A stretch of DNA of 33,157 nt, from positions 1 to 33,157 of the forward strand of contig SVQL01000008.1 of NCBI GenBank assembly GCA_015065365.1, given 5' to 3'. Source of the stretch: Oscillospiraceae bacterium (GTDB taxonomy: Bacteria > Bacillota > Clostridia > Oscillospirales > CAG-272). The notes under the pieces are model-generated. The model had not been told where the DNA came from. It did no database searches and saw only the letters and a program-made list of their open reading frames with translations. A program made the translations under genes and the position numbers. This document shows, piece after piece, positions 14,044-30,878 of the stretch (its first letter is position 1; the number at the start of each line of letters is the position of its first letter).

Positions 14044-14052
14044 GGAGAACGT

Positions 14053-14736
14053 ATGGCAATTCTTGAAGCTATTGACATAATAAAGCAATATAAGCGCGCG
14101 GGAAACACCGTCACTGCGCTCAATCGCGCATCTATAAGGGTTGACGAGGGAGAATTCGTAGCCATAACGGGAGTTTCAGGCTCGGGCAAAAGCACGTTTA
14201 TAAACATCTGCGCGGGACTCGACACTCCCAACGCAGGCTCGGTCATGCTCGGAGGTCGAATGATAACCTCACTCTCTCAAAACGAGCTTACCGAATACCG
14301 TGGAAAAACCGTGGGCTTCGTATTTCAGTCACACAAGCTGATTCCCCATCTGACCGCCTACGAAAACATACTTCTGCCGCTCAACGCCGCAAACAGAAAG
14401 CAGGAAAAGCACGAGGAGCGCTTTAAGCTGTTGGTCGATTCTCTCGGTATTCGCGACCGCCTTGCGCATCTCCCCTCGGAGCTTTCGGGCGGTCAGGCGC
14501 AAAGAGTGGCAATAGCGCGCGCTCTTATCCACTACCCCCGTATTCTCTTTGCTGACGAGCCTACGGGAAACCTCGACAGAAAGAATGCAGACGAGGTGGT
14601 TGACCTTTTGGTAAGTCTTAAAGACAGCCTCAAGCAGACTATGGTAGTCGTAACACATGATCCCAAAACTGCAGAGCGTGCCGACAGAATTTACAATATG
14701 GAAGACGGCTTCCTCGTTGAGGTGAAGCGCAAATGA
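14053..14736 (+). CDS. ABC transporter ATP-binding protein, LolD/MacB type
   Basis: Cytoplasmic ATPase that powers the neighbouring permease. It has all canonical motifs: Walker A GVSGSGKST (about residues 36-44), the Q-loop region GFVFQSHKLIPHLT, the signature LSGGQAQRVAIARAL, Walker B ILFADEPTGNLD and the H-loop VVVTHDP. At 227 residues it is a stand-alone nucleotide-binding subunit. GGAG lies before the ATG, and the stop overlaps the start of the next gene by 4 bp (ATGA), indicating translational coupling. Confidence 0.95.
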   Translation: MAILEAIDIIKQYKRAGNTVTALNRASIRVDEGEFVAITGVSGSGKSTFINICAGLDTPNAGSVMLGGRMITSLSQNELTEYRGKTVGFVFQSHKLIPHLTAYENILLPLNAANRKQEKHEERFKLLVDSLGIRDRLAHLPSELSGGQAQRVAIARALIHYPRILFADEPTGNLDRKNADEVVDLLVSLKDSLKQTMVVVTHDPKTAERADRIYNMEDGFLVEVKRK

Positions 14737-15431
14737 CGTACGCGGTTGTCGACTGTCGCATAACTCACGACGTTGAGTATGCGTTGCTTAACTACGCCGA
14801 CAAAATAATAAAGTTACCGCCGCACCCCGCGCTCGCGGCTCCCGTCGCATCGCACCCGGATATGCTTATTTGGTCGTTCGAACGTAAAATCGTCACGTAC
14901 GAAGATTATTTTTCGATTGCTCAAAATGAGCTTCTTGAGCTTTGCTCGCTCGGCTTTGAGCTTGTGACGGAGAAGGCTTGCCCCAACGCTGTGTATCCAC
15001 GCGACGTGCGCCTAAACTGCGCCGTAGTGGGAAATCATGCGCTTGCCAATCTCAAATATACGTCCGAGCGCATAAAAAACAGCTCTCTTGAGCTTTTGCA
15101 CACAAACCAAGGATATACAAAGTGCGCGACGGTTGTAGTCAATGATAACGCGATAATAACATCTGACCCGTCGGTTTTCAATGCCGCTATGCAGGCGGGT
15201 ATCGACGCACTTAAAATAAGCGAGGGGCACGTAAGGCTTGACGGCTATGATACGGGCTTTATCGGAGGTGCTACGGGCGTTACGGACAACGAAGTCCTCT
15301 TTACGGGCGCCCTTTCCTCACACCCCGACGCCGAAAGTATAAAAGAATTTTGCGCCCGCCACGGCAAGCGCGCCGTATCCCTATCACCCGCACCGCTTTA
15401 CGACTACGGGACCGTGTTTTTCTTTGATTAG
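14733..15431 (+). CDS. DUF6873-like protein, possible GME fold
   Basis: A 232-residue predicted cytoplasmic protein with no signal peptide or membrane segment. It resembles the DUF6873 family that genome annotation places in the GME (guanidino-group modifying enzyme-like) fold; I recognise it by overall pattern (VYPRDVRLNCAVVGNH, IISDPS-like ITSDPSVF, GFIGGATGV), not by a search. The GME-like repeat of short strand-loop motifs is plausible, but a full Cys/His/Asp catalytic set is not evident, so activity is uncertain. It is translationally coupled to the ABC ATPase by an ATGA overlap and precedes apbE by 23 nt. Confidence 0.65.
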   Translation: MTYAVVDCRITHDVEYALLNYADKIIKLPPHPALAAPVASHPDMLIWSFERKIVTYEDYFSIAQNELLELCSLGFELVTEKACPNAVYPRDVRLNCAVVGNHALANLKYTSERIKNSSLELLHTNQGYTKCATVVVNDNAIITSDPSVFNAAMQAGIDALKISEGHVRLDGYDTGFIGGATGVTDNEVLFTGALSSHPDAESIKEFCARHGKRAVSLSPAPLYDYGTVFFFD

Positions 15432-15454
15432 ATAATAAGCAAAAGGAGTCGAAT

Positions 15455-16480
15455 ATGAAAAAAGTACTTAAAAGAGCTATTTTGCTCTTACTTTGCGCGC
15501 TTATTGCCGTACCGCTCAGCGCATGCGATAAAAGGAGAAAAAAGTATACCGACTCCTATTTCGGCTATTTTGATTCCTTCGCTGAATTCACACTCTACAC
15601 CGACTCAGAGGAACACTTCGAGCATTACAGCGACATAGTTGAGCGCGAGCTAAAAAAATACCACGAAATGCTCGATGCTTACAACGGATACGATGGCAAA
15701 ATAAATATATATTCCCTCAATGAAGGCGCTGCCAATACGCCTATGAAGCCCGAGCCCGAGCTTTTCTTTTTCCTTGAAAAATCCAAGGAGCTTCACGAGC
15801 TGACGGACGGCTATACGTCAGTAACACTCGGTGCGGTAACGGCTATCTGGAAGGACGCAATAAAAAACGGCGTACCGCCAAATGAGGAAAGCTTGAGAAA
15901 TGTCTCGGAGCATACGGATATAAATGACTTGATTCTTGATAGTGATGAATGGACGGTCGCGTTTGCGGACGAACATCTTAAGCTTGACGCGGGCGCTTTG
16001 GGCAAGGGCTTTGCCGCTGACTGTATCGCGGATATTCTCTCTCTTGAGGGCTGTAAGGAACCGTTCATGCTTAATCTTGGCGGAACGCTTGCCGCAAGAG
16101 GTGAAAAGCCCGACGGCACACCATGGCTTGCGGGAATACAAGCCCCCGACGGCGGTGAGCTTGACGGCATTTCAATCAATCTCTCGCGCTTTGAGTACAC
16201 CACCAACGCCCTTTCCACAAGTGGCTCGTATCACCGCGGATTTGAATACGAGGGCGTTATCTATCACCATATAATAAACCCTTATACGCTGATGCCCGAA
16301 AATAATTTCACGTCGGTCAGCGTTAATTGCAGCTCTGCCGCAAGGGCAGACGCGCTATCCACCGCTCTATTTTCTATGTCACCAGAGCAAGGACAAGCTC
16401 TTGTGGAGTCCCTTGATGGCATCGAAGCCGTGTGGCTTTTGGCTGACGGCAGAGTGATAAAAAGCAACGGCATAGAATAA
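15455..16480 (+). CDS. apbE: FAD:protein FMN transferase, lipoprotein
   Basis: Transfers FMN from FAD to a Thr/Ser of target proteins outside the membrane. It has a signal peptide with lipobox VPLSAC (Cys24). ApbE signatures are DSFAEFTLYTD near the start, LDAGALGKGFAADCIAD, FMLNLGGTLAARG, YTTNALSTSGSYHRGF, HHIINPYTLMP and the metal-binding ARADALSTALFSM. At 341 residues it has the usual size. AAAAGGAG precedes the ATG. No FMN-binding-domain substrate is encoded in the window, so its target lies elsewhere in the genome. Confidence 0.95.
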   Translation: MKKVLKRAILLLLCALIAVPLSACDKRRKKYTDSYFGYFDSFAEFTLYTDSEEHFEHYSDIVERELKKYHEMLDAYNGYDGKINIYSLNEGAANTPMKPEPELFFFLEKSKELHELTDGYTSVTLGAVTAIWKDAIKNGVPPNEESLRNVSEHTDINDLILDSDEWTVAFADEHLKLDAGALGKGFAADCIADILSLEGCKEPFMLNLGGTLAARGEKPDGTPWLAGIQAPDGGELDGISINLSRFEYTTNALSTSGSYHRGFEYEGVIYHHIINPYTLMPENNFTSVSVNCSSAARADALSTALFSMSPEQGQALVESLDGIEAVWLLADGRVIKSNGIE

Positions 16481-16503
16481 CTAAAACGAAAAGGAGGAGA
16501 AAA

Positions 16504-16839
16504 ATGAATAAAAAAGATATAGTTCTCTTCCTGTGCATAGTTGTGTCATCAATTTTGACGTTTGCCGTTCTTTGGCTTGCTTTGGTGCCTCGCGGTGACG
16601 TCGCCGTAGTCAATGTGGACGGCGAGGAATACGCAAGGCTCCCACTTGACGAAAATACCGAGTTTTTGGTAAAAAGCGGGTATGGTGAAAATCTCGTGGT
16701 CGTAGAAGACGGAGAAGTATATATAAAGGAAGCGGATTGTCCTGATAAGGTGTGCGTAAGAACGGGCAAGGCAAACGCCATGAAAAGTGTCGTTTGCGCG
16801 CCGCACAGACTCGTCGTGACGGTGGAGGGAAAGTCATGA
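16504..16839 (+). CDS. NusG domain II membrane protein (EetA-like)
   Basis: A 111-residue protein with one N-terminal membrane anchor (DIVLFLCIVVSSILTFAVLW) and an extracytoplasmic NusG_II domain (VAVVNVDGEEYARLPL, VYIKEADCPDKVCVRTGK, VVCAPHRLVVTV). Cys residues in DCPDKVC and VCAPH are typical of the family. In Listeria a protein of this type (EetA) belongs to the flavin-based extracellular electron transfer locus together with an ApbE-type FmnB and EetB. AAGGAGGAG precedes the ATG. The stop overlaps the next start by 4 bp. Confidence 0.85.
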   Translation: MNKKDIVLFLCIVVSSILTFAVLWLALVPRGDVAVVNVDGEEYARLPLDENTEFLVKSGYGENLVVVEDGEVYIKEADCPDKVCVRTGKANAMKSVVCAPHRLVVTVEGKS

Positions 16840-17336
16840 AAAAAAAAGGAGCTGCAAAAACCGTAGCGCTTTGGGGCATGCTTATTGCTCTCGGACTTGT
16901 GTTCGGATATATCGAGCACCTCGTTCCCCTTCCAATCGGTATTTACGGCATAAAGCTGGGGCTTTCAAATCTTGTTACACTCGTAGCGCTCTATACACTT
17001 GGCGCGCACGCGGCAATTTATATAAATCTTATAAGAATATTTCTCTCGTCGCTGCTATTCGGCAACGCCGTGTCTCTCGCATATAGCCTTGCGGGTGGAC
17101 TTACCGCAGTAATAATAATGATCATAGCAAAAAAAATCTGGAAATTCGGAACGGTTGGCGTAAGTGTTCTCGGAGGGCTCACTCATAATCTTGCGCAGCT
17201 TGCAGTAGCCGTATTTATGGTAAACAACTTAAAAATAGCATTTTACCTGCCCGTACTGATCGCCGCAGGCGCAGTAACGGGATTTATCATAGGCACGTGT
17301 GCCATTCCAATCATAAAAAATCGGCAGAAGAGTTAA
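16836..17336 (+). CDS. Gx transporter / heptaprenyl diphosphate synthase component I-type membrane protein (EetB-like)
   Basis: A 166-residue polytopic membrane protein of the Hpre_diP_synt_I family. About five hydrophobic segments are visible, including ALGLVFGYIEHLVPLP and LAGGLTAVIIMIIAKK, and the motif GIKLGLSNLVTLVALY is typical. I chose ATG 16836 because GGAGGG lies 6 nt upstream and it overlaps the previous stop (ATGA). A longer frame from 16752 has no such support. The C-terminus TGFIIGTCAIPIIKN reappears in diverged form at 18690-18735. Despite the family name a direct role in prenyl synthesis is doubtful; EetB-like electron transfer or ECF-like transport is more likely. Confidence 0.85.
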   Translation: MKKKGAAKTVALWGMLIALGLVFGYIEHLVPLPIGIYGIKLGLSNLVTLVALYTLGAHAAIYINLIRIFLSSLLFGNAVSLAYSLAGGLTAVIIMIIAKKIWKFGTVGVSVLGGLTHNLAQLAVAVFMVNNLKIAFYLPVLIAAGAVTGFIIGTCAIPIIKNRQKS

Positions 17337-17428: not shown

Positions 17429-18277
17429 TCAGCTATTCGTTAGTTGTTTTTTGCATCTGAACTTTGAAATAAAAGCACCAAGGCATAATGCAGCTACGGG
17501 AAGGATCGCCATAATAATAAGTGATAAAAAGTTCCCTCGGTCTATAAAATACTCACAGTATTCACTATAGGAAATTGGATACACAATTGTATTGAAAAGA
17601 TATGTTTTAAGAATCAAGTGCAAGATATACAGCAATGCTGTCGCCGAAACAGAGCAACACAAATTGAAAACTGCTGAAAATAAAACACATTTTGGGGTAA
17701 ACGCAACATTATTCAACCCATAAATGAAAGACCATAGGAGTATTGACAAAAACACCGGATATTGAATACCACCGGGAAGCGCCGACATATCGACCTTCAT
17801 TATTGCGGAAAGTATTATCTGATACATAAAAAGTGAAATTGTCGGGATAAAACAAATACACAGATTTTCTATAACTGTCCAAATACGCTTGGAAATAGCA
17901 TTTGATTTAGAGAAAAATCCAAATGTCGGAGCATACACAAGCGCAACTGCAACTGTAGTAACCAAGCAAGGAATTATAAAATAAGGCAAAACAAGCAAAA
18001 AGGATATCAAACTAAATTCGCCTATAATGATACAAATGGCACTTAAACTAACTAAAATCACCAATAAATTCCAAATTAAAAGCCAAAGAGCAACATTTCT
18101 TTTAGATAAAACAACACTTCTTACAAATGAGAATGTAAAAAATGCTGCCAGAACCATAAAAAGATAAAATGCAATACCATTGAATATAGTATTCATTTCA
18201 ATAAAAAGGAATATTGCATTAAGAGCAGTTCCCAAAACGATAGAAACAATTAATGCAGAAATATAAAAAACATACAT
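17429..18277 (-). CDS. Polytopic membrane protein of unknown function
   Basis: A 282-residue protein with about seven to eight hydrophobic segments (for example ISALIVSIVLGTALNAIFLF, LWLLIWNLLVILVSL, LVTTVAVALVYAPTFGFF) and a short basic C-terminus KFRCKKQL. No family motif is recognised. The codon use and base composition are AT-richer than the preceding operon, suggesting acquired DNA. It has its own consensus promoter. The ribosome binding site before ATG 18277 is weak (GAAGAAAAA), so the start is tentative. Confidence 0.75.
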   Translation of the reverse strand: MYVFYISALIVSIVLGTALNAIFLFIEMNTIFNGIAFYLFMVLAAFFTFSFVRSVVLSKRNVALWLLIWNLLVILVSLSAICIIIGEFSLISFLLVLPYFIIPCLVTTVAVALVYAPTFGFFSKSNAISKRIWTVIENLCICFIPTISLFMYQIILSAIMKVDMSALPGGIQYPVFLSILLWSFIYGLNNVAFTPKCVLFSAVFNLCCSVSATALLYILHLILKTYLFNTIVYPISYSEYCEYFIDRGNFLSLIIMAILPVAALCLGAFISKFRCKKQLTNS

Positions 18278-18514: not shown

Positions 18515-18543
18515 TTGACAAAAGTCGACGTAGTGAGTATAAT
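18515..18543 (+). promoter_or_regulatory. Perfect consensus promoter in front of the xpt remnant
   Basis: TTGACA (18515-18520), 17 bp, TATAAT (18538-18543) on the plus strand. The only thing downstream before the tRNA is a gene fragment. Confidence 0.7.
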
Positions 18544-18917: not shown

Positions 18918-18993
18918 CTGGGTGTGGCGCAGCTGGTAGCGCGCTACCTTGGGGTGGTAGAGGCCGCAAGTTCAAGTCTTGTCACTCAGACCA
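18918..18993 (+). tRNA. tRNA-Pro (anticodon GGG)
   Basis: A 76 nt cloverleaf: acceptor CTGGGTG with CACTCAG (one G-U pair), D arm GCGC/GCGC, anticodon arm CTACC-TTGGGGT-GGTAG with anticodon GGG at loop positions 3-5, T arm GCAAG-TTCAAGT-CTTGT, discriminator A and an encoded CCA. It reads CCC and CCU codons. It stands alone in an AT-rich, rearranged region, where tRNA genes often mark integration points. Confidence 0.93.
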
Positions 18994-19041: not shown

Positions 19042-19127
19042 TTACGCAGTTTTTCGAGGGGGTGTTACACAATTTGCTACGCAGATTGTGTAACACCCTG
19101 CTTTTTATTGTCTTTTACGTAACGCAG
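19042..19127. repeat. Inverted repeat with three short direct repeats
   Basis: A perfect 14 bp inverted repeat, GGGTGTTACACAAT (19060-19073) with its complement at 19085-19098, is followed by TGCTTTTTATTG. The octamer TTACGCAG or a close variant occurs at 19042, 19077 and 19120, so one copy lies in the loop and one on each side of the hairpin. It could be a second terminator or a recombination or element end. I cannot assign it to a known repeat family. Confidence 0.6.
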
Positions 19128-19169: not shown

Positions 19170-19212
19170 TTTTACAATAAAAGATGGCGCATACAATTTA
19201 GCACACGCCATC
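19170..19212 (-). terminator. Probable terminator of the DUF262 gene
   Basis: GATGGCG (19212-19206 on the minus strand) pairs with CGCCATC (19189-19183), then TTTTATTGTAAAAAAA. The stem is only 7 bp and the loop is long. Confidence 0.5.
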
Positions 19213-19223: not shown

Positions 19224-20258
19224 TCATTCTATTGTCAAAAAAATATGTAAATACTCTAGCATAATTTCACGTCGTCCATCAAGGGAAAATTTCTTATCTG
19301 CCCCCTGTTGCAAAAGTCTTGTAAATTCTATCATTTTGGGATCGGAATTTATTTTATCTTCTCTCCCCATCGCAATCTCTCTACTCAATTCAAAGTATTT
19401 AATAAATTTTTTCAATTTTCCCACTGGTATTTCATCTACAATGGAATACAACGTTACAATTAAACTCTTTTTCGAAAGTAGCTTGTCCTTATCATCAAAT
19501 TCATTTATAAAACAATTAATTTTTGACTTAACTCGCTCTAAAGCTTGTTGACATTCAATATCAAAATCTTTCTCGCTAGAAACAAATCTATCAACTGTTT
19601 TCTTTCCTAAATCTTCATACCCCATTTCTATCATTAAGAATTTTAAAGCCAAATCGAAATGTGCATATCGAGCATTTGTCATTCTTATCTTATCCGTAAA
19701 GAATGGAGATGTCATATACAGCGTTTTCATCTGCTGTGCCAAATTGCCACCAGATGCATTTCTTTTCTCTGCCGTATTAACTGCTACACCACTATTCAAC
19801 CTAATAAAGGTTTCATTTATAATATCCGGGCTATCTGTATCCATAAATACTATACACAATTCATATTCTAAAATTCTAGAAATTATAGAGGGAGCAACAT
19901 TGTCAATTTCAAAAAAAGTTTTCCCCGCAATATTGCTATATTTTTTATCTGCGTCATTTATAAAAACAAAGGGATCTGAAAGTGCCAGTTCATTCTTCAA
20001 AAAATCAAATATTGCTTCTAATCGTTGTTTTCCATCTATTACTGCATAGTTATAGCACAATGTATTATTGTTTTGTGGCATAAATTGAAAATAAATTTTT
20101 GGAATATCAAAACCATTAATAACACTATCAATCAATAATTGTTTTTGCTCCTTATTCCAAACTCTCCCCATTCTTTGATAGTTTGGAGAAAAATCAATAT
20201 ATTTTTCTTGAGCAAGAAGCCAACTAATGCTCTTATATTCTTGAAAAATTTTAAACAT
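19224..20258 (-). CDS. DUF262 (GmrSD N-type, ParB-like) domain protein
   Basis: A 344-residue protein. The DUF262 fold, related to ParB/sulfiredoxin-like nucleases and to GmrS, is seen at residues 20-180. It includes the family pattern PNYQRMGRVWNKEQKQLLID, FDIPKIYF and the nucleotide/nuclease motif AVIDGKQRLEAIFDF (DGxQR), then FIRLNSGVAVNTAEKRNA. The rest is helical with no HNH motif visible. DUF262 proteins act in GmrSD-type restriction and other anti-phage systems. The start overlaps the FRG-gene stop by one base (TAATG) with GGAGG just before, so the two are translated together. It is clearly AT-richer than the core genes. Confidence 0.82.
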   Translation of the reverse strand: MFKIFQEYKSISWLLAQEKYIDFSPNYQRMGRVWNKEQKQLLIDSVINGFDIPKIYFQFMPQNNNTLCYNYAVIDGKQRLEAIFDFLKNELALSDPFVFINDADKKYSNIAGKTFFEIDNVAPSIISRILEYELCIVFMDTDSPDIINETFIRLNSGVAVNTAEKRNASGGNLAQQMKTLYMTSPFFTDKIRMTNARYAHFDLALKFLMIEMGYEDLGKKTVDRFVSSEKDFDIECQQALERVKSKINCFINEFDDKDKLLSKKSLIVTLYSIVDEIPVGKLKKFIKYFELSREIAMGREDKINSDPKMIEFTRLLQQGADKKFSLDGRREIMLEYLHIFLTIE

Positions 20259-21340
20259 TATTTTCCTCCTTCATAGGTGCGTTTCAATTCTTTAGAAATC
20301 GAATCAAGTTCAGGGAAAAGTGAACTTTCAGTTATTCCTATGTAATATAAATCGTCTTTGATTTTGTTTATATTATCTTTAGGAATAACAATTTTAACAA
20401 GAAACTTTTCTGACTGCTCTAATGATTCCATGTCAAAAGATTCCTTGTTTGGAAAAAGAGTAAATACTCCCTTTTGAGCTATTATTCTTTCGGTGTTTTG
20501 CGGACCAATGATTGCAACTGGATGCGTTTTTTGTCTCACACTAGTAAAATACATTTTATAAAGGTCATCGCATTCGCAAATATTAGGAACTTTTTCGTGT
20601 TCATAAGATGGATAACTAATATGGGAGTTTAAAATTATTGGATTTAAGCACCATACAACAGCATTCTTATCTTCGTGTTTACTTTTTCTGTATTGTACCG
20701 CGAAAGCTAATGCAACTAAAGCATTTTCTGACCAATCTAAAAGTCGTGTTGGAGTTTCATGATGTTGCATTATAAACAACCACTCAGCTTCATTGGTTGG
20801 TATATGTTCTAAAAATCTTGCTGCTCTAGCTTTAAATTGGTGCAATAACGCTGCCTCGGTTTCCCATGTATATGGCTCTCTATAAACAGTCGGCATCAAT
20901 TTGTATTCTTCAGATGCGTGTCCCCTAAACCACAATTTTGTATGTTGCTCTTTAAGTGATGCAATTATATCCAGATATCCGTAATGGTTGCCGCCTGCTC
21001 TCTTACCGTTAACGAATACGTCGCTCTCGCTCATTACTCCGTCAAATTCAAGAAATACGCAACTGTTCTTATATTCTTCGGAAACGAAAAGCTCCTTTTT
21101 GTAAACTCCCGTTCCGACTATGGGCAAGCCGCCCGTTCTTCCCGTATGCTCAAGAGTTCCGTCCGCTCTGTATACGGGATCGTTATTTATATCAAAATCT
21201 CCCTCGATAGCGTAGTCGTGCGGTATGCGCACTGCCCTGCCGCCGTCAAAGCTCGCAATAGCCTCCTCGGGAGAAATATTTTCATCTTCAAATTTTTTGA
21301 AATAAAATCCGTCCGTTAAATTAGTGATTATTCTTTTCAT
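20258..21340 (-). CDS. FRG-domain protein fused in frame to a GH2 N-terminal fragment
   Basis: A 360-residue open frame of two unrelated parts. Residues 1 to about 121 match the N-terminal sugar-binding domain of family 2 glycoside hydrolases (VRIPHDYAIEGDFD, VGTGVYKKELFV, VFLEFDGVMSESDVFVNGK, GGNHYGY). From about residue 122 the sequence is an FRG-domain protein: LDIIASLKEQHTKLWFRGHA with the name-giving FRG, YKLMPTVYRE, then FIMQHHETPTRLLDWSENAL and VALAFAVQY. The FRG part appears nearly complete and AT-rich; the GH2 part has core-genome composition. AGG lies 9 nt before ATG 21340. FRG domains occur with nuclease or toxin-like partners, and here DUF262 follows with a TAATG overlap. The chimera could be a functional capture or a recombination artefact. 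Confidence 0.8.
   Translation of the reverse strand: MKRIITNLTDGFYFKKFEDENISPEEAIASFDGGRAVRIPHDYAIEGDFDINNDPVYRADGTLEHTGRTGGLPIVGTGVYKKELFVSEEYKNSCVFLEFDGVMSESDVFVNGKRAGGNHYGYLDIIASLKEQHTKLWFRGHASEEYKLMPTVYREPYTWETEAALLHQFKARAARFLEHIPTNEAEWLFIMQHHETPTRLLDWSENALVALAFAVQYRKSKHEDKNAVVWCLNPIILNSHISYPSYEHEKVPNICECDDLYKMYFTSVRQKTHPVAIIGPQNTERIIAQKGVFTLFPNKESFDMESLEQSEKFLVKIVIPKDNINKIKDDLYYIGITESSLFPELDSISKELKRTYEGGK
20978..21340 (-). pseudogene. 5' remnant of a family 2 glycoside hydrolase gene
   Basis: The first 121 codons of the chimeric frame are the start of a beta-galactosidase/beta-glucuronidase-like GH2 gene. The immunoglobulin-like middle domain and the TIM barrel with its catalytic Glu pair are absent from the window. 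The remnant sits directly downstream of the solute-binding lipoprotein gene on the same strand, which fits an original sugar-use locus. Confidence 0.75.
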
Positions 21341-21350
21341 ACATTACCTA

Positions 21351-21390
21351 AAAAATTCCTGCTGCTATTAGATTTAATAACAGCAGGAAT
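21351..21390 (-). terminator. Terminator of the solute-binding protein operon
   Basis: A 16 bp stem with one mismatch (21390-21375 with 21370-21355), followed by TTTTT on the minus strand. It separates the operon from the GH2::FRG frame by a few bases. Confidence 0.88.
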
Positions 21391-21416
21391 CAATTGAATA
21401 TTTGTGATAAATAGGA

Positions 21417-22874
21417 TTATTCTGAAATATAACTCAAAAATCTATTTAATTCTATAACAGCCTGATCCTCGTAAGCCGCGTACTGTGTCTTAAAGTTATT
21501 AACACCGCCAACTGACAAGGACGGGAACTGTCCGTAGTCAACGAATATCCACGTGTGGATAGCGCCCCAACCGAATACGACGCCAAGATCGTAAATAGGC
21601 TTTTCAATAGCTATTTCAAGCATTTCAAGAGCTTCCTCGTCAATGCTTCCCTTTATCTTACAGTTGATCTCAATGTAATTGGTATTCATCTCCTCAGAGC
21701 CTTCGTTAATAGCCTGCAAGCCAAAGGACGCAAACTCCTTATTTTCTGCCATTGCGGGAATTACGAAGAGAGCCGAAAAGTACGAATGGATATTAGAATA
21801 GTAGCTTTGCTGCTCACTATCGTATTTAGGATAAGGAAGGAATCCGTAGCTGAAGCCTGCGTCGGACTTAAGATTGTCAACAAATGAAAGCTCTCCGTCA
21901 AACATAAGGGCCTTCTCGTCAAGGAACAAGCTCTTAGACTCCTCGATAAGTCCGGATTTTACAGCAAAGAACGTACCGCCGTCACTTGCGTGAGTCATTG
22001 CAAGAACCTCGTCAATTACGTTGAGAGTTCTCTCGTTATCAATAACGAAATAAGGAGTATCGTTTGCATCCTTTCCAATAATATTGACCTCGCAAGCAGC
22101 AACGTAATGATAGAAGTTTCTGTTGTTCGAGCAGCTGAGACCGTAGGTCATGATCTCTCCCGTACCGCCGTCGGTAACGGTTCCTTCCGCTCTAAGCTTA
22201 GCCATCGCCTCAAGAGTCCAATCGCCACTTCTTACAAGCGCCACTGGATTGATGTCAGACTGCATATCTTCAAGCATTTCTCTGTTGTAGAATATAAGCT
22301 CTGTATTCATCTTCTCCTGAAGATTAACGTAGCCCGTTGTCATATAAAGCTTATTATTTATGCTAAGTGTTTCGTTTACGTAGCTGTTCCAGCAAGCCTT
22401 CTCAAAATAGAGATAAGGAAAAGCCTCGGAATCGTAAAGATTTGCCGCAGCGCATCCTGCTGCCATCATTGACTTAACCTCATGAACCTGCATAAATACA
22501 AGCTCGTAATTGGATTCTTGAGCAAAATACTCAATGTTGAGCGTGCTTGCAGGAGTATCTTCTCCTGTAAATACTACGTCTATACCGTACTGTTCCTTCA
22601 AGAGAAGATTTCTGGTATATACGTCGGAAGAAATAGGGTCGGTAGGAGCCTCGGCTTCTATACTTACCGTAGCGTACTGCTTTACAGAGCCATAAGCATT
22701 TCCGAGGACTCTGTATTCTCTATCCCACATAAGCTTGGGAAGCTCTCTGCCGTTATCAACCGGCTCGGTTGTCGCTGTGGTTTCCTCAGGGACCTCATCA
22801 ACCGTACAGCCCACAAGCGTAGTTGCAAGCATAAGAACAGCCAACAAAAGGCATATCAAAGATTTGATTTTCAT
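21417..22874 (-). CDS. Extracellular solute-binding lipoprotein
   Basis: A 485-residue lipoprotein (lipobox TTLVGC, Cys23, then a Thr/Glu/Pro linker) that looks like an ABC-importer solute-binding protein of the carbohydrate type: EYRVLGNAYGSVKQY at the first strand, LLLKEQYGIDVVF, NNKLYMTTGYVNLQEK, LIFYNREMLED, GDWTLEAMAKLR and the late YGFLPYPKYD. It would capture a sugar-type ligand outside the cell. No permease or ATPase genes accompany it here, which is unusual. It is last in the minus-strand operon, before a strong terminator. Confidence 0.85.
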   Translation of the reverse strand: MKIKSLICLLLAVLMLATTLVGCTVDEVPEETTATTEPVDNGRELPKLMWDREYRVLGNAYGSVKQYATVSIEAEAPTDPISSDVYTRNLLLKEQYGIDVVFTGEDTPASTLNIEYFAQESNYELVFMQVHEVKSMMAAGCAAANLYDSEAFPYLYFEKACWNSYVNETLSINNKLYMTTGYVNLQEKMNTELIFYNREMLEDMQSDINPVALVRSGDWTLEAMAKLRAEGTVTDGGTGEIMTYGLSCSNNRNFYHYVAACEVNIIGKDANDTPYFVIDNERTLNVIDEVLAMTHASDGGTFFAVKSGLIEESKSLFLDEKALMFDGELSFVDNLKSDAGFSYGFLPYPKYDSEQQSYYSNIHSYFSALFVIPAMAENKEFASFGLQAINEGSEEMNTNYIEINCKIKGSIDEEALEMLEIAIEKPIYDLGVVFGWGAIHTWIFVDYGQFPSLSVGGVNNFKTQYAAYEDQAVIELNRFLSYISE

Positions 22875-22904
22875 AAATTACCTCTCTTTTTAGTTTTATA
22901 AATT

Positions 22905-24392
22905 TCACTCGCCAAAAAGCTCGTTTAATTTTTTTAGTGTTTCCTCGACAAGAATCTCACCGCCGTCAGCATCCGTTACGCAGTCAAATATACTTGCAGA
23001 ATATCCCTTATTTCCCTGTCCCTTGCATGTCGGAAGGTATCCGCCGCCTTCCATACCGGGAACTGCCGCGAGCTGTACGATAAAGGTCTGCTCCGCAGGG
23101 CTTCTCGCCTGAATTCTCTGCTCGTAGTCCATAAACAACTCGAAGCGATTGGTTGTGAAAGCAATGTCTCCAAGTCTTATTACGTGACATTCCATCGGGA
23201 AGGTGTTTTCTTTTTGATAAGACTCGTATTTATTTATTATTCCGGCATATCTTGATATACCCGAAAGCTTTACGGTCTTTTTCTTGAAATCGTTGTACCA
23301 CTCGCCGTTTTGCTTGGGAACGACCTTTTTTGCCTCCTCCAAGCCAACTAATGCGCTTTGATACTGCTCCTCACTTATCTTGATCTTGCTTAACTGCATA
23401 TCAAAAGTGCTGTGCTTTATAACCGTTTTGGTTTTAATATCAGCAGAAGCCCAAGACTCTATTTCGGCAAGACCTGCGACGATCCTTTCGGCAATATCGC
23501 GGCGTCTGCCCATATCGAGCTCGGTATCCTCGCCGTATTTAAGCTTATAGCGACGCGCCTCAGCGGCGTTATAGTGCAAAAGTCTTGGCGAGATGTCACC
23601 CGCTGCCGCGCACTGCGGAAGCACGTAAATGTCACCGAACTTCTCCTTAACAGCAACTCTTACCTCATGCCAATAGTCTGCCGAAAGCACACTCCTTGAC
23701 TCGGAGCACTGCGACGGACAAGGAACGTTTGCAACTATTCCCGTCAGCTTTCCGCTCTCGTCGTAGGTAAACATGGCGTTAAGAAAGCTTTCTGTTCCGG
23801 ACTCGTAGCCGAGGAAATCCTCGTCGTTCGTATTTCCGTACATCATACAATAGCCGTTTACTGAGTGCAAGGAGTCCTGAACTGCACCGGCTCCCGTATC
23901 GCGGGAATAAACTACTCGCCTGCTATGACCTACGGTTGCAAAGCCGTAACCGTAAGCAAAGCCGCCATCGGCTCTCGTGTCGTAGGACTCGATTATTGCC
24001 TCAACCGTTTTGTCAACAATAAAAGCTTTCACTTGGTTTCCGCCCATAATATCGCCCGCTTCCTTTGGAAGAAGCTCTTCTTGCTTTGAAGAATTAAGCT
24101 CTGGAGTAGTGTGCGAGTGCGTTGCGGATATTACAATTTTTTCCACGTTAATATCGGAACGCATTGAGGATATTTTCTCTCTTACAAAATCGAGAATTCC
24201 ACCGCGACATACTACCATGTCCATTGTTACAAATATTACGCAATCTTTTCCGTTATCAATCGTAAGAGCCGTAACCGTTATGGGATCCATAACCCCCTCG
24301 GAAATTCTCATATACATCTGACCGCCTATAAAGCAAGGGCGAGGAGGAACGATACTTCTCGTTCCCCAACCGATTTTAATTTGTTGTTCCAT
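22905..24392 (-). CDS. Neutral/alkaline ceramidase-family hydrolase (N-terminal domain type)
   Basis: A 495-residue predicted zinc amidohydrolase without signal peptide, similar to the neutral ceramidase N-terminal domain family. The motif ISATHSHTTPE provides the His pair expected for zinc binding, and NVPCPSQCSESRSVLSADYW, LPQCAAAGDISPRL and GGGYLPTCKGQGNKGYSAS are in family positions. The true substrate may not be ceramide, since bacterial homologues are often found in sugar loci. I chose ATG 24392 because GAGGGA lies 9 nt upstream; an in-frame ATG at 24407 would be five residues longer. The start lies inside the PHP gene's 3' end (17 bp overlap), so the two are translationally coupled. 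Confidence 0.8.
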   Translation of the reverse strand: MEQQIKIGWGTRSIVPPRPCFIGGQMYMRISEGVMDPITVTALTIDNGKDCVIFVTMDMVVCRGGILDFVREKISSMRSDINVEKIVISATHSHTTPELNSSKQEELLPKEAGDIMGGNQVKAFIVDKTVEAIIESYDTRADGGFAYGYGFATVGHSRRVVYSRDTGAGAVQDSLHSVNGYCMMYGNTNDEDFLGYESGTESFLNAMFTYDESGKLTGIVANVPCPSQCSESRSVLSADYWHEVRVAVKEKFGDIYVLPQCAAAGDISPRLLHYNAAEARRYKLKYGEDTELDMGRRRDIAERIVAGLAEIESWASADIKTKTVIKHSTFDMQLSKIKISEEQYQSALVGLEEAKKVVPKQNGEWYNDFKKKTVKLSGISRYAGIINKYESYQKENTFPMECHVIRLGDIAFTTNRFELFMDYEQRIQARSPAEQTFIVQLAAVPGMEGGGYLPTCKGQGNKGYSASIFDCVTDADGGEILVEETLKKLNELFGE

Positions 24393-25419
24393 CAAAATTT
24401 CCCTCATTACTTAAAATTTTAGAAAAGAAAAATGCATTGCTATAAGCGCATTTATTTTTCTTATCGTAAACAACGAACCTCATATAATCCATTTTTTCAG
24501 GATAAAAGCTAAAGCTTGCAAAGGTAATAGTATCTCCCTTCTTTTCGGCAGCCTTGGTTTTGCATTTTCCATCTGTAATCATAGCAATTCTCACGGCATC
24601 GGACGTTGCAATATATACTCTGCCGTCCTCTATATAAAGATCTTTTATTTCAGGACCTTCAGAAGCATAAAAATCTCCATTAAGCAGCGCTTTTGAAATT
24701 GAACTATAAGTAAGCTTTTCAGCTTTTATCATTGTAAAAGCGCCGAAAGAATCGCAACCGGGACTGTCAATCGGTGCATAATTATGATTATCGTCCGCCG
24801 CAATACAGTATATCTTTTCACCACCGCGAAGCATTTCGTCGTAAACTTTTCCATTATGATCGTCATATCCGTCAACAACACATCCGTAATTCACTATTTC
24901 CATAGCATTCATACCGTGATAATTGCGGTATTCGTCCAAAGTTTCCAATGACCATGTCGGATGATTGTAGGTAACGAAAAAGCCTTCCTCTACTCCCCGC
25001 TTTATAATGTCAGAAATAACGTTTGGTGAGTATTCAGGATCGATATAGTCGCTGTCCTTATCTAAAACATAAGCATCGGGATTTTTTTCAAAGAACTTGC
25101 TTTTATAGAAAATTTTCTGAACTGATTTGTTCTCATCAAGCGAAACAAAGCATACGTGGCAAAGCTTTGTTCTTCTGTGGCCGTCTTGTGGCGGACAAAA
25201 TTCCAATTCATATCCGTTTAGTGGTAAGAAGGTATCGTCGCGAAGATCATTATGTGTAATAAAAACATCGTGATCAGTAAAAGCAACTATTGAATATCCT
25301 TGATATTTATAGTGTTCTTTTACTTCCTCAGGTGTCCACTTCCCATCCGAAATGTTAGTATGGCAGTGCAGGTTTGCTTTGTAAAATTCACCTTGTGCCG
25401 GCAAAAGATATTTCCTCAT
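24376..25419 (-). CDS. PHP-domain metal-dependent phosphoesterase
   Basis: A 347-residue protein with the PHP motifs I (NLHCHTNISDGKWTPEEV: His18, His20, Asp25), II (FTDHD), III (TYNHPTWS) and IV (AADDNHN). They form the multi-metal site that hydrolyses phosphoesters. The C-terminal 100 or so residues are a beta-rich extension (GPEIKDLYIEDGRVYIAT) as in PHP proteins with an accessory domain. No signal peptide is seen. It is second last but one in the operon, between the EEP lipoprotein (18 nt) and the ceramidase-like gene (overlapping). The physiological substrate is unknown. Confidence 0.87.
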   Translation of the reverse strand: MRKYLLPAQGEFYKANLHCHTNISDGKWTPEEVKEHYKYQGYSIVAFTDHDVFITHNDLRDDTFLPLNGYELEFCPPQDGHRRTKLCHVCFVSLDENKSVQKIFYKSKFFEKNPDAYVLDKDSDYIDPEYSPNVISDIIKRGVEEGFFVTYNHPTWSLETLDEYRNYHGMNAMEIVNYGCVVDGYDDHNGKVYDEMLRGGEKIYCIAADDNHNYAPIDSPGCDSFGAFTMIKAEKLTYSSISKALLNGDFYASEGPEIKDLYIEDGRVYIATSDAVRIAMITDGKCKTKAAEKKGDTITFASFSFYPEKMDYMRFVVYDKKNKCAYSNAFFFSKILSNEGNFDGTTN

Positions 25420-25437
25420 TTTTATAACGCCTTCTGC

Positions 25438-27105
25438 TTATTTTTGCAGTTCGGGAGTAAGACAAAGCCTAACTATAACGGGATTGTGGTCAGAAGGATT
25501 TTCATCCTTCAGATCGTCAACCTTGTAATAAGACATCAAAGCACCTCTGTCGTTAACGAATATATAGTCGATAACGTGAGAGTGTCCCGGGAAGGTATTC
25601 GCGGCCTCTATTACTTCCGCAGCGTCGGAGCTGTTCGTATAGCCTGCGTTAATAAGAGTCTTTATCGTTGACTCGGTATATTCGCAGTTAAAGTCTCCGC
25701 CCATTATAACCGTAGCGGTAGGCTCGTCAGCAAGATACGCGTTTACACGCTCAAGTATCAGATTTATCTCTTTTGTTCTCAATTGAGCGCCGGTAATATT
25801 CTCCGCGTCTTTAGCCAACAAATTAAGGTGCACGCAAACGGCAAGGATCTTCTTGCCCGATGATATTTGCTCAAGGCTTGAAAATTCCGTAAGCTTTACG
25901 TATCCTCCGCCCTCAAACTGAGATAGCACGTCAGGCGTTTCCGAATGCCAAAAATACGTTGATTGGTTATGCTTTATAGTCGCCTTCTTGTAGTATACGA
26001 TATTGTGAACGGTATGAGGGATAGATATATCTTCTCTGAACGTCGTTGCAAGCTCGTACTCTGATCCGAGCACCTCTAACATTCTGGGACCGACACTCTT
26101 AAGGTCAGCCTCCTGAAGCAAGAGGATATCGGGCTTGTATTCCACGAAAACAGCCTCGTATCTGTCAGCGGTTACTCCACCTATTTTATTTCCGTCCTGT
26201 CCTTGAACGTTCCAGTTCAAAACGGTCAGCTCCTCGTCAACAAAGGCTCCCGTTATGCTCACGTCAAGCGCCGGCTCGGAAAGCGCGGTGATTCTGTTGG
26301 TAAGTGCCAGAGCCGTCTTGTATACTGCCTGCGAGGTGCTTCCGCCTACGGTTATATTTCCATTGCTAAGCATTTCGCAAAGCAAGCTGTTTTCATCGGT
26401 ATCGGTAATATCAACCGTAATCGTCAATCCCTGCGCCTCGTCAGCCTTTACGACTGAGAGATAGCGTCCGCATTTATCGGCAATAGCGTCGCGGATAAAC
26501 TCAGCAAGATATTGCATACCGTAAACGTCGTCATTGTACGCAACGGTAAATTCCTTAATATCCTTACCGCCTACGGTGATAGTTTCAAGCTGGTATTCTC
26601 CAACGAAGGTATAGTCGGAGTCGTTCGTGTAAAAAGCACCCTCCGCCACGTCCGTCGAAAGAACCTTGCTTATAAATTCATCAATAGCGGTTACGGTCAT
26701 TTCGTCGTTAACGCCGCCAATAACCAGCTTTTTGTTTACAGCCTTCCAGCCGTAATCACGTGATTTAAGAGACTCGATAAAGCTCTTACTTTCTTCTCTG
26801 TTGGTAACGCCGATTAGAATTTCGGTTTCCTTGATTGCGAGAGCGTCAACGCCCTCCTTGAAGAAATCGTCCTTTGCCGTAAGAACGACACCGAACTTAT
26901 CCTTTAGCGCAACCGAAAGCTCACCAACCTTGTCCTTAAGCTCGTCTCCGGCATCCTCTCCGTATACTATTACGTAATCGGAGAGCGTATCCCTTGACAA
27001 AACGATGGGCTCGGCATCCTCCTCCTGCGTGTTGCAGGAGGAAAATGCCATAGCTACCATTGTCAAGGCACACAGAATACAAATTATTTTTTTAATCGTT
27101 TTCAT
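25438..27105 (-). CDS. Lipoprotein with C-terminal endonuclease/exonuclease/phosphatase (EEP) domain
   Basis: A 555-residue lipoprotein (lipobox AFSSC, Cys24). Residues 40-290 resemble the N-terminal accessory domain of large glycoside hydrolases (YVIVYGEDAGDELKDKVGEL, ILIGVTNREES, WKAVNKKLVIGG). From about residue 295 an EEP fold has its catalytic motifs: LTVLNWNVQG, ILLLQEADL, VIMGGDFNCEY, HVIDYIFVND and SDHNPVIV. EEP enzymes cleave phosphodiester or phosphomonoester bonds, including sphingomyelinases and nucleases. I chose ATG 27105 (MKTIKKII), with GAAGGG 5 nt upstream; the longer frame would need a TTG. The protein is probably on the cell surface. Confidence 0.85.
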   Translation of the reverse strand: MKTIKKIICILCALTMVAMAFSSCNTQEEDAEPIVLSRDTLSDYVIVYGEDAGDELKDKVGELSVALKDKFGVVLTAKDDFFKEGVDALAIKETEILIGVTNREESKSFIESLKSRDYGWKAVNKKLVIGGVNDEMTVTAIDEFISKVLSTDVAEGAFYTNDSDYTFVGEYQLETITVGGKDIKEFTVAYNDDVYGMQYLAEFIRDAIADKCGRYLSVVKADEAQGLTITVDITDTDENSLLCEMLSNGNITVGGSTSQAVYKTALALTNRITALSEPALDVSITGAFVDEELTVLNWNVQGQDGNKIGGVTADRYEAVFVEYKPDILLLQEADLKSVGPRMLEVLGSEYELATTFREDISIPHTVHNIVYYKKATIKHNQSTYFWHSETPDVLSQFEGGGYVKLTEFSSLEQISSGKKILAVCVHLNLLAKDAENITGAQLRTKEINLILERVNAYLADEPTATVIMGGDFNCEYTESTIKTLINAGYTNSSDAAEVIEAANTFPGHSHVIDYIFVNDRGALMSYYKVDDLKDENPSDHNPVIVRLCLTPELQK

Positions 27106-27147
27106 AGTACCCTTCAATTAGGTTAAATTATGTTAATTTACGTTAAA

Positions 27148-29943
27148 TCAGTCTTCTTTTCTCTTGCGAGCGAAGGAGAGTGCAGCACCTGTAATTGCAA
27201 CTACTGCAACTGCGCCCATTCCGATAGAGCCGCCGCATCCTGCTTTTCCTTCTGCTACTGCTGCGTCGGTCTCGGGAGCATTCGTCTCGGGAGCGCTCGT
27301 GTCGGGAGTGGGGTTGGGCTTGGGATTATTGTTAGGATTGTTATTATTGTTGTTGTTCTCTTCCTTGGGCTCTTCCTTGGGCTCGGTTCCCTTTTCGTAA
27401 ACTACAAGCTCTTTGACGTTCCACATAAGGAAGTCGTGAGTAGTTCTGCCGTACTCAATAGTAAGCATTACGTATCTTACGGCATCCTGATTTACCTCAA
27501 TGTCGTGATAAAGAATTTCGGCTTCCTTGTCATACTTATATACGGGACCGTAGCCGGTGACCATTTCCTCAAAGCTCTGGCAATGAGTCCAGTTAATACC
27601 GTCAGCACTCGTGTATACGGAGTAATCCTTACTGATGCAAGTAGGATCTCCGTTTACCCACCAACGCAATACGCTTACGTCGTAGGTCTTATCCTCGTCG
27701 TCGTTGGAAAGGTCCATAATGATGTAGTCGTAGAAATCGTTGTCGCTTGCTTCGCCGTCGTAAGCTACCATCTTACCGTCAACCATACTCTTTACGTAAG
27801 TAAGCTCGGTTCCGCCGGGCTTCAAATGATCTTTGTACTGGGAATTGTATCTCCATACGGAACCACTGCTAACATCACCGTCATACATCTTGGTAGCGCA
27901 AAGCTCCTTGTCAGCGTCAGCGCTAACGAGAGCATCGTAGGATCTCCAAGGCATCTCTACGGACTGAATACCGATACCCATCTGGGTAGGTCCTGCGGGC
28001 TCCTCTTCGCCGCCGTCAGGGGTCTCGGGAGCAGCCTGCTCTGCGTCGTTGAAGGTTACTTCTCTAACGAGAGTTCTAACGTCTCCAAAGCTCTTTTCGG
28101 AAATTGCTATTGCAACGTAGCCTGCGGTAACGTCGTTCATATCAAAGTTTATACCGTAGTAGGTATCAGTACCAACAGTCTGCGTATAATAAGCAAGATC
28201 TGCGTTTGCGCCTTCAGCTAAGCCGGTACCGTTTACTCTGGATACGCCGTCAACGTAGGTATAGGTCGTACCGTCTGCGGAATAGTAAATATCGAAAGCA
28301 GCCGTTATAAAGGAGTTATCAGTTTTATCATTACTACCCCAAACGGTCATGTTATTAAGAACAGCTGCGTCCTTAAACTTAAGAACGATAACGTCGAGAT
28401 AGGATCTGCCTGCAAGCAAGCCCTTTGTAACTACAAACTTCTTCTGTACGAACTTTACGGAAGGATTGTAATCCTCGGAAAGATCTCCGGAGCAAGCGCT
28501 GGTAGAATGATCGCCATCAATTGCCGCGGTAAGAGGATCGCTCGCGCCATAGCTTACCTTGGTTTCAAAAGCATCGTAATACTTTGCCTTTGTTCTCATT
28601 CCGAGATTGGTAATTTCAGCTACTTCAACTGCAGCACCGCCGTTAAACGTAACCTCATGCAAGAATACTCTGTCCTGAAGAACTGCGGTCTCCTCAACTG
28701 CGATTGCAATATGAGTTGCGTTTGCGCCGTCGTTTCCGTTAACCTTGAACTTGATTCCGTAGTAGGTAGTATCTTCAACGGTCTTTGTCTCGGAAGCGAG
28801 GTCAGCGTTTGCGCCCTCGTGTCCCATACCGTCGCCGCACATATCGTCAGCGCGACCAACGTATTCGTAGTTCGTGCCGTCGTTGGAATAGAATACGGTA
28901 AACTTGTTGTTCATAAAGGCTGAAGACTTCTTATCCTCGTTACCCCAAATGGTTATGTCGTTGATAAGAGTAGAAGCCTCAAGCTTGAGGATAATAACTT
29001 CCTTGTAGCTTTCGTTTTGATTTACAAAGTTGCCATTATTAAACACGGTGGACATAACGTGGTCGCTACCAAGGTTGGTCGAATACGTAGAATTTGCGAA
29101 ATCTCCATCAAAAATGTTGGAAAAATCAGGATCATCCGTATAAGCGATATCAACCGCGCCCTCAGCCTTATCGTGCTTGGTTCTCTTTCCAAGGCTCGAA
29201 GCGGATTCAATCACTGCTACTGTGTTTGTAACAGGCGTATTATTAACTTCAACGATTCCCGTTGCGGTAATTTCCCAAACGACTATCTTTTCATTTCCTG
29301 TCGTGGTTCTGGGTTCAGTAACGGCAATAGCAACGTACTTTGCCTCGATGCCGTTCATAGCCATTTCGTTCTTGTAAATTTTTCCTGTCAAGCTTGCATC
29401 GTCACTGGTGATACCGTAGCTGCCTACCTCGCCGGGGAATGTGCTTGCATCCACGGGAGTATGCGCATTGTCTGCGTCAGCAATAGCTACGTCGCTGTTT
29501 ACGAACGTAGTACCGTCAACGGAGTACCAGATCTCGTATGCTTGGTTATCAAGCCAACCGCCTGCTTTACTGTTAGGCGACCAAACGGTAAGAGTTGTAA
29601 GCTTAGTCAACTGATCAAGCTCGGCTACGATTATACCGTAATAATCTCCGCCATCTTTGTAATCTATTGCTCCGTTATTGAAATAAGCGCGCTTGGCAAC
29701 ATCGTTGCTTGATGTTGTAGAATAGTACTTTCCATCATCAAGCTTACCATCAATCGCGTTAGCTCCGGTAAAAGTAACTTTTTCGCCGCCGCTATCCTGC
29801 GCATTAAGAGTAACGGATTTGAATTCAACTGCTGTCGCAGTTTCCTCCGCCGATACTGTCAGCAGTGTAAAAGGTATCGCCAACGCTATCATCAACACTG
29901 CAAGAAAGAGTGATAACGCTTTTTTCATGTTACTGTTTTTCAT
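27148..29943 (-). CDS. Large secreted surface protein with four discoidin-like domains and a GCGG-type C-terminal tail
   Basis: A 931-residue secreted protein with an N-terminal signal peptide ending near TVSAEETA. Four repeats of about 190 residues resemble F5/8-type C (discoidin) carbohydrate-binding domains. Each has a variant of an AIDGD-type motif: IDGKLDDGKYYSTT, IFDGDFANSTYSTN, AIDGDHSTSACSGD and MYDGDVSSGSVWRY. The repeats end near residue 870, followed by a Pro/Asn/Thr linker. The C-terminus is AGCGGSIGMGAVAVVAITGA with a hydrophobic segment and ARKRKED. It has a sorting-signal architecture but no LPXTG. AAAGGAGAT precedes the ATG. It is first in the operon and would bind glycans at the cell surface. 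Confidence 0.85.
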   Translation of the reverse strand: MKNSNMKKALSLFLAVLMIALAIPFTLLTVSAEETATAVEFKSVTLNAQDSGGEKVTFTGANAIDGKLDDGKYYSTTSSNDVAKRAYFNNGAIDYKDGGDYYGIIVAELDQLTKLTTLTVWSPNSKAGGWLDNQAYEIWYSVDGTTFVNSDVAIADADNAHTPVDASTFPGEVGSYGITSDDASLTGKIYKNEMAMNGIEAKYVAIAVTEPRTTTGNEKIVVWEITATGIVEVNNTPVTNTVAVIESASSLGKRTKHDKAEGAVDIAYTDDPDFSNIFDGDFANSTYSTNLGSDHVMSTVFNNGNFVNQNESYKEVIILKLEASTLINDITIWGNEDKKSSAFMNNKFTVFYSNDGTNYEYVGRADDMCGDGMGHEGANADLASETKTVEDTTYYGIKFKVNGNDGANATHIAIAVEETAVLQDRVFLHEVTFNGGAAVEVAEITNLGMRTKAKYYDAFETKVSYGASDPLTAAIDGDHSTSACSGDLSEDYNPSVKFVQKKFVVTKGLLAGRSYLDVIVLKFKDAAVLNNMTVWGSNDKTDNSFITAAFDIYYSADGTTYTYVDGVSRVNGTGLAEGANADLAYYTQTVGTDTYYGINFDMNDVTAGYVAIAISEKSFGDVRTLVREVTFNDAEQAAPETPDGGEEEPAGPTQMGIGIQSVEMPWRSYDALVSADADKELCATKMYDGDVSSGSVWRYNSQYKDHLKPGGTELTYVKSMVDGKMVAYDGEASDNDFYDYIIMDLSNDDEDKTYDVSVLRWWVNGDPTCISKDYSVYTSADGINWTHCQSFEEMVTGYGPVYKYDKEAEILYHDIEVNQDAVRYVMLTIEYGRTTHDFLMWNVKELVVYEKGTEPKEEPKEENNNNNNNPNNNPKPNPTPDTSAPETNAPETDAAVAEGKAGCGGSIGMGAVAVVAITGAALSFARKRKED

Positions 29944-29970
29944 GATAAATCTCCTTTTTTTGTTTTTTTA

Positions 29971-30000
29971 TTGACACAACTCACGCCGTTGTGTTATAAT
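29971..30000 (+). promoter_or_regulatory. Promoter of the AraC regulator
   Basis: TTGACA (29971-29976), 18 bp, TATAAT (29995-30000), 34 bp before ATG 30035. No clear promoter for the divergent operon (gene at 29943) could be picked out in this intergenic region. Confidence 0.75.
29974..29994. promoter_or_regulatory. Palindrome in the divergent promoter region, possible operator
   Basis: ACACAAC (29974-29980) and its complement GTTGTGT (29988-29994) flank 7 bp and fill most of the spacer between the -35 and -10 boxes. ACTCAC (29979-29984) and GTGAGT (30010-30015) form a second inverted pair around the -10 box. The site is well placed for autoregulation. Confidence 0.45.
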
Positions 30001-30034
30001 CTAGATACAGTGAGTAATTTTTTGAGAGGTTTTT

Positions 30035-30826
30035 ATGATCTATTCCTTTGAGCACCGCCCCGAGTCCATTGCCACGTCGCATCCGCGTTGCCGTACTGCC
30101 GAATACCCCCTGCTTATTCATAAGCAGATTGAGATAATATACGTTATAAAGGGTAGTGCTACGTACGTTATCGACGGCAAGGAAGGCACGCTTTCCGCAG
30201 GTGACGTGTCAGTGGTATTCCCTTACGTCTCACATTCATACAGCTTTGTCGAGTCGGAATACGTTATGCTGTTTTTCCAACCCGAAATCTGCGCGGAATA
30301 TGAGCAGTATATAAAGGAATCCAAACCCGAAGAGCCGATACTGCATGGCTGCAACGAGAAGCTTTGCGAGCTTGTATGGAGCGCGTTCGAAGCGCACAAA
30401 TCTCAAACCGAGCTTGGTATAAAGCTTTCCAAAAGCTACATAAACGCGCTGATGGGTGAGCTGTTATCCGTCCTATCATTTGGAAAGCATTCTGTCGAGG
30501 ACCAAAACACTCTCAATAAGCTTCTCATATATTGCACCGAAAACTTCAGGCAATCGGATATCAGCGTCACGACGCTCTCAAGGGAAATAGGCATATCCCC
30601 AAAATATTGCTCCCATATCATAAATTCACTTATGAATACGAATTTCAGACAGTATATAAATTCCCTTCGAATGTTCGAGGCGGCAAGGCTTCTCGCAAAC
30701 ACGAGTCAGCCGATAACCAATATCGCGCTTGACGTGGGCTACGACAACCAAAGCACCTTTAACCGTATATTCCTTGAAACCTACGGTATGACACCGAAAG
30801 AATACAGATTGTCAAAAAGGAAATAA
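30035..30826 (+). CDS. AraC-family transcriptional regulator
   Basis: A 263-residue regulator. The N-terminal cupin ligand-binding domain (about residues 20-105) includes EIIYVIKGSATYVIDGKE and VVFPYVSHSYSF. The C-terminal pair of helix-turn-helix motifs spans residues 160-262 (ISVTTLSREIGISPKYCSHI, ITNIALDVGYDNQSTFNRIF, GMTPKEYR). It is divergently transcribed from the discoidin/EEP/PHP/ceramidase/solute-binding operon, so it most likely senses a sugar and controls that operon. GAGAGG precedes the ATG. Confidence 0.94.
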   Translation: MIYSFEHRPESIATSHPRCRTAEYPLLIHKQIEIIYVIKGSATYVIDGKEGTLSAGDVSVVFPYVSHSYSFVESEYVMLFFQPEICAEYEQYIKESKPEEPILHGCNEKLCELVWSAFEAHKSQTELGIKLSKSYINALMGELLSVLSFGKHSVEDQNTLNKLLIYCTENFRQSDISVTTLSREIGISPKYCSHIINSLMNTNFRQYINSLRMFEAARLLANTSQPITNIALDVGYDNQSTFNRIFLETYGMTPKEYRLSKRK

Positions 30827-30875: not shown

Positions 30876-30878
30876 AAC

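Follow-up and report, generated by a model that had tools for sequence, protein, structure and literature searches.

Organization of the locus

The DNA analyzed here, referred to as the window, is a stretch of 33,157 nucleotides (contig SVQL01000008.1) from an Oscillospiraceae bacterium. On its minus strand lies an open frame that begins as a GH2 glycoside hydrolase gene, continues as an FRG gene and is followed by a gene for a DUF262 protein (Table 1). Pfam searches placed Glyco_hydro_2_N (PF02837) at residues 29-128 of the fused frame (E 2e-9, profile positions 26-117 of 169) and FRG (PF08867) at residues 135-221 (E 5e-23, 82.2 bits against a curated cut-off of 25), and the domain switch falls at residues 121-123. 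With both domains present and no stop between them, these results bear out an initial sequence-only reading in which GH2 residues up to about 121 and FRG residues from 122 onward share a single open frame. The completeness that this reading gave to the two domains holds only in part: the FRG core is intact, but the GH2 domain is truncated, breaking off near position 117 of the 169 in its profile, and the FRG protein has lost its native N-terminus. The DUF262 start and the FRG stop share one base, and the FRG-DUF262 pair is, as had been proposed, now headed by the GH2 start codon.

Table 1. Coordinates of the features at the fusion locus.
Feature	Position	Strand	Basis or remark
Second chimeric open frame, 83 residues	18543-18791	+	2.2 kb from the GH2/FRG fusion
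tRNA-Pro (GGG)	18918-18993	+	convergent with the module
Terminator-like hairpin	19183-19212	-	just past the DUF262 stop
DUF262 (GmrSD_N) partner, 344 aa	19224-20258	-	PF03235, E 1.5e-18, 68.1 bits versus 33.2
Fused GH2/FRG open frame, 360 aa	20258-21340	-	no internal stop
FRG protein without native N-terminus (about 13 residues), core intact	20258-20971	-	PF08867, PADLOC, alignment A2
Join, Tyr122-Leu123 (TAT CTG), assignable to either parent	20972-20977	-	alignments of relatives
GH2 glycoside hydrolase 5' stub, residues 1-121, own start codon kept	20978-21340	-	Pfam PF02837, relatives, alignment
Terminator-like hairpin, 17 bp and T run	21354-21391	-	ends 13 bases ahead of the fused ATG

The pair also differs from its surroundings in base composition. 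GC content is 0.34 in the FRG part and 0.30 in the DUF262 gene, compared with 0.45 in the stub, 0.48 at positions 1-17336 and 0.44 at positions 21341-33157; AT-richness extends beyond the module, the segment 17337-19223 also having a GC content of 0.34. The related pair of Colidextribacter sp. OB.20 (see below) likewise has a GC content of 0.34 in a locus that is otherwise at 0.52, and the low GC content of both pairs suggests that the FRG-DUF262 module was probably acquired horizontally. Within the fused frame, GC3 is 0.47 over the GH2 portion and drops to 0.25 over the FRG portion, with the best change point after codon 167 (a score reached by 2 of 2000 shuffles), 46 codons beyond the join. 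The earlier suggestion that GH2 identity, FRG identity and base composition all change at one point thus holds only approximately.

From position 17336 downward the window contains ordinary chromosomal genes. Within the same AT-rich stretch as the module, a low-GC gene on the minus strand (17429-18277) encodes a 282-aa protein without a Pfam or PADLOC match, and a 19-pair inverted repeat (GGGTGTTACACAATTTGC...; 19059-19099, minus-strand fold of -26.5 kcal/mol), surrounded by TACGCAG-like words, lies between the tRNA-Pro gene and the module. Pfam gave no carbohydrate role for the genes upstream of the GH2 stub. Flank synteny was not detected within the genus: the gene upstream of GH2 reaches only about 28-33% identity to its best relatives, and in the five best genomes (G019, G007, G001, G018 and G002) the left-flank transporter was on another contig (three genomes) or was not found (two).

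The two parents and their join

Homology searches, made in part with the two halves of the fused protein separately as the sequence-only reading had advised, led to two different kinds of gene, with GH2 relatives continuing past the join and FRG relatives matching only from residue 122. The closest GH2 hydrolases, three proteins from the same bacterial family (L009-L011; stub identity 51-55% in the search alignment), are encoded by open frames of 787-799 aa that run on beyond the break point, whereas the stub ends at about residue 121. Pfam found no GH2 catalytic barrel in the fused frame and, without a catalytic domain or the end of its sugar-binding domain, the stub is probably a dead remnant. 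The remainder of the GH2 gene was not found in the organism's own assembly (90% complete), where the 492 residues of L010 that follow the join region matched, at 33% and 31% identity, only a further two genes (frames of 1045 and 585 aa), both of which have GH2 catalytic matches. A search for relatives with an intact GH2 gene at this locus, also advised earlier, returned no close one among 30 genomes of the genus, the next-best stub match being 28-31% identical. The identity of the stub to the three GH2 relatives (0.49, 0.57 and 0.48) is as high as that among the relatives themselves (0.50, 0.42 and 0.45), indicating that there has been little time for decay; the undecayed state of the stub thus suggests that the fusion is probably young.

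On the FRG side, one scan of genome contigs yielded five named relatives (L058-L062), all of which matched the fused protein starting only at residue 122. Their own initiator Met lies 13, 15, 15, 11 and 22 residues, respectively, ahead of the point corresponding to residue 122, and the natural length of the protein in L058-L061 is 247-259 aa. Judged by L058, about 13 residues of the native N-terminus have been lost in the window and replaced by GH2 sequence. The FRG core has eleven invariant columns across the 20 sequences of alignment A2, and in PADLOC the FRG part (residues 118-357) matched 13 PDC-S15 models, with a best E of 2e-57. A search of solved structures by sequence returned nothing convincing (best E 0.55).

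The sequence-only reading had named one refuting condition that could be checked here, namely FRG proteins that ordinarily contain a GH2-like segment; this possibility was rejected, since none was found among the relatives, in alignment A1 or in 394 genomes of the order. Alignment A1 combined the window protein and three GH2 relatives with 28 FRG relatives out of 30 distinct ones (L039, which is cut by a contig end, and the distant L054 were left out, L008 is the same gene as L007, and L078-L081 were not included). Four of its members carry GH2_N; judged from the totals (29 + 3 = 32), these are the window protein and the three GH2 relatives, so that the GH2 domain is apparently present in none of the 28 other FRG proteins. 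When the whole fused protein was searched against the 394 genomes (E up to 1e-10, with at most five candidates scored per genome), 10 genomes had a match, including the window's own; the nine others matched on the GH2 side (four, two of which extend 11 residues past the join) or the FRG side (five), and none matched both domains. Within the family, the GH2 part was found in 33 and the FRG part in 24 of 295 genomes, the window's own being counted in both. Two FRG proteins of 426 aa (L007, 982-2262; L048, 940-2220) carry a long N-terminal part and match the FRG profile only from residue 156.

At the join, the window encodes ..GGNHYGYLDIIASLK.. (including NHYGYLDII), the GH2 relatives have ..GRNHWGYLSFSVDIT.. 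(L009, including NHWGYLS), ..GGCHFGYLSYEVDIT.. (L010, including CHFGYLS) and ..GSNHFGYRSFEVDIT.. (L011), and the closest FRG relative, L058, has ..SEYLEKIISLK.. at this point. Tyr-Leu is therefore found as GYL in two GH2 relatives (L009 and L010) and as EYL in L058, and since Tyr122-Leu123 could come from either parent, the join was placed at these two codons. The dipeptide is not universal: L011 has Tyr-Arg and L013 Tyr-Thr, and L059-L062 have Phe-Leu, Phe-Leu, Phe-Phe and Tyr-Ile, respectively. Neither parent sequence was found. The sequence-only reading had taken a repeated GGATAT at the switch as fitting microhomology-mediated joining. When two sequences join by microhomology, however, the word they share ends up in the product once, not twice, and GGATAT occurs 40 times in the window, counting both strands, so we rejected it as the joining word. 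The Tyr-Leu codon pair may be a better, if unproven, candidate for such a word.

The FRG-DUF262 pair and its expression signals

The DUF262 protein matched the PADLOC model NsnA (99 bits) above PD-T4-2_A (60 bits, E 5e-17). A DUF262 gene directly follows the FRG gene in four of the five named relatives, which come from a Clostridia genome (L058), two Bacteroidota genera (L059 and L060) and L061, and the same order occurs on a plasmid of Hymenobacter volaticus (L085). No DUF262 gene was detected at L062 by the profile used. As this profile derives from only five close sequences and the flanks of the remaining FRG loci are short, its silence at those loci is weak evidence. Among phage records, 10 matched FRG and 67 matched DUF262, and among plasmid records the counts were 143 and 61; all matches were below 60% identity, and one of these records, the Hymenobacter plasmid, was inspected for gene order. 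In addition, scans of viral contigs found no relative of either protein. Our literature searches returned no paper naming both "FRG domain" and "DUF262".

The nearest documented counterpart is the Colidextribacter sp. OB.20 pair (L058), in which the FRG protein is 69% identical over residues 122-356 and an overlapping DUF262 gene lies directly downstream. There, in contrast to the window, FRG is a stand-alone gene of 249 aa that has kept a start codon of its own and is preceded, at 40 bases, by a promoter-like site, and a terminator-like site follows DUF262; in that locus, promoter-like sites are not above chance (11 versus 8.5 in shuffles) and terminator-like sites number 4 versus 1.2. The L058 pair has six tRNA genes on one side and a phage integrase gene on the other, and the window pair lies beside tRNA-Pro. 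PDC-S15, a PADLOC candidate consisting of FRG proteins that we compared through its models only, shares the FRG part but differs from the window, where FRG is preceded by a GH2 stub and has a DUF262 gene as its neighbour. The GmrSD and BrxU type IV restriction systems and PD-T4-2 share the DUF262 domain, in which the window has IDGKQR compared with the motif (I/V)DGQQR given in a review (PMC10952713). In the same review DUF262 is treated as an NTPase of several defence systems, and PD-T4-2 is tabulated with a HEPN partner. The DUF1524 nuclease domain, which in GmrSD systems belongs to the same or a neighbouring protein, gave no Pfam match (E cut-off 0.01) to the window's DUF262 protein, FRG protein or eight other scanned proteins, and Pfam gave no HEPN match, the neighbour of DUF262 being FRG. 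Frg has been placed in the ADP-ribosyltransferase superfamily, with the suggestion that it might act as an NADase (PMC9503650). On the basis of the family models and this literature, the FRG-DUF262 pair is probably a two-gene phage-defence module, in which sensing or NTP hydrolysis by the DUF262 protein would likely gate the FRG effector.

Promoters and terminators were sought by consensus matching, which gave 22 promoter-like sites in the window compared with 13.3 in shuffles, and four terminator-like sites compared with 3.9. Since terminator-like sites overall are no commoner than in shuffles, the case for the hairpin ahead of the fused gene rests on its fold energy (21391-21354; -23.4 kcal/mol, z -7.1, with none of 200 shuffles as good). 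Its position just upstream of the fused ATG implies that read-through from upstream genes should be weak, and the scan found no promoter match on the strand of the fused gene from the hairpin up to position 20400. An AGG six bases ahead of the fused ATG is a plausible ribosome site. At the other end, the hairpin past DUF262 is possibly the 3' end of the module transcript. We would thus expect the fused protein to be made at most weakly, through read-through past the upstream hairpin or from an internal start at Met103.

Origin of the fusion

We consider it likely that a recent, accidental fusion truncated the GH2 gene and beheaded a probable, formerly autonomous defence module. In the order of events that we infer, the FRG-DUF262 module would have adjoined the GH2 gene, at the end of a same-strand gene run and next to tRNA-Pro. 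More recently, either a deletion or an illegitimate join at one end would have removed the last ~670 codons of GH2 and, in the same event, the FRG promoter, its ribosome site and its first ~13 codons, joining the two frames perhaps at the Tyr-Leu codon pair common to both. The product would be a chimeric open frame in which the FRG core and the overlapping DUF262 partner are intact and the GH2 part is dead. We rejected a simple insertion into the GH2 gene: it would have left the GH2 3' end downstream, and this part was found neither there nor elsewhere in the assembly, so that a deletion or one-ended join fits better.

A second chimeric open frame lies nearby (Table 1). Over residues 1-50 it shares 88% identity with G000:C125, an intact phosphoribosyltransferase-type gene of 199 aa in the organism's own assembly. 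A further 13 such genes in the genus match it, and 12 of these matches also end at residues 48-50; residues 16-59 gave a sub-threshold phosphoribosyltransferase match in Pfam (E 8e-4), and from its sequence we take this front part to derive from a xanthine phosphoribosyltransferase. The rest matches the heptaprenyl-synthase-I-type (PF07456) transporter-like gene whose end lies at 17336, both in the organism's own genome and in four others. The tail is 72% identical to 17264-17321 over 58 bases (none of 200 codon shuffles scored as well), and the two copies share the word CGCAGGCGC at the switch. A perfect 12/12 sigma-70 consensus (TTGACA, 17, TATAAT) at the start of the remnant (18515-18543, plus strand) may have arisen by chance as coding sequence decayed, or may be a live promoter. 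That gene scraps have been fused in frame twice within 2.5 kb suggests a spot prone to illegitimate joining, although a sceptic could read the pair as a hint of chimerism.

Indeed, the join rests on one draft assembly of 129 contigs (90.2% complete, 5.62% contaminated), the domain switch is sharp and the fusion occurs in one genome only, all of which would also be expected if the assembler, or template switching during library preparation, had brought together unrelated loci and no fusion existed in the organism. Assemblers need overlaps of tens of bases to join sequences. The parents here can share only about 6 bases, too little for an assembler, and we therefore judge chimerism unlikely. In addition, the window contains the 12-base junction word just once, the two parts are joined in frame without a stop, and beyond the module the sequence continues into a tRNA gene and then the ordinary chromosomal genes described above.

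Selection could instead have kept the fusion if the GH2 leader placed expression of the pair under regulation or supplied a useful N-terminal part, as in the earlier proposal that a mobile module may have captured a metabolic locus. The in-frame join, the undecayed stub, the overlapping DUF262 start and the AGG ahead of the ATG all accord with such a role, but one join in three is in frame by chance, the sugar-binding domain is cut and no second example was found. Moreover, with a hairpin 13 bases upstream and no promoter match after it, promoter capture as in the earlier proposal is not supported, and we regard a functional capture as quite improbable.

Slightly less probable again is that the upstream frame is irrelevant and that translation begins at the in-frame Met103, giving an FRG protein of 258 aa, near the natural length. 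This codon lies 19 residues ahead of Tyr122, within the 11-22 residues at which natural FRG proteins start ahead of the same point, and no other ATG, GTG or TTG codon occurs between residues 96 and 135. However, the GGAG preceding it is just 2 bases from the ATG, a spacing too short for efficient ribosome binding, and the stub contains no promoter match on this strand. We give least credence to the idea that the defence pair, standing behind the start, leader and stub of a carbohydrate enzyme, has its level set by that gene's regulation, as a hybrid gene soon after its birth at a spot that repeatedly joins scraps in frame.

The fusion looks like a recent one-off recombination accident rather than a new kind of system. 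As such, it offers a clean and probably young illegitimate-recombination chimera of a probable defence module, likely of horizontal origin, and a metabolic gene, in which both parent kinds are still recognizable, and cases of this sort show how domain fusions begin and how defence modules decay or become re-wired.
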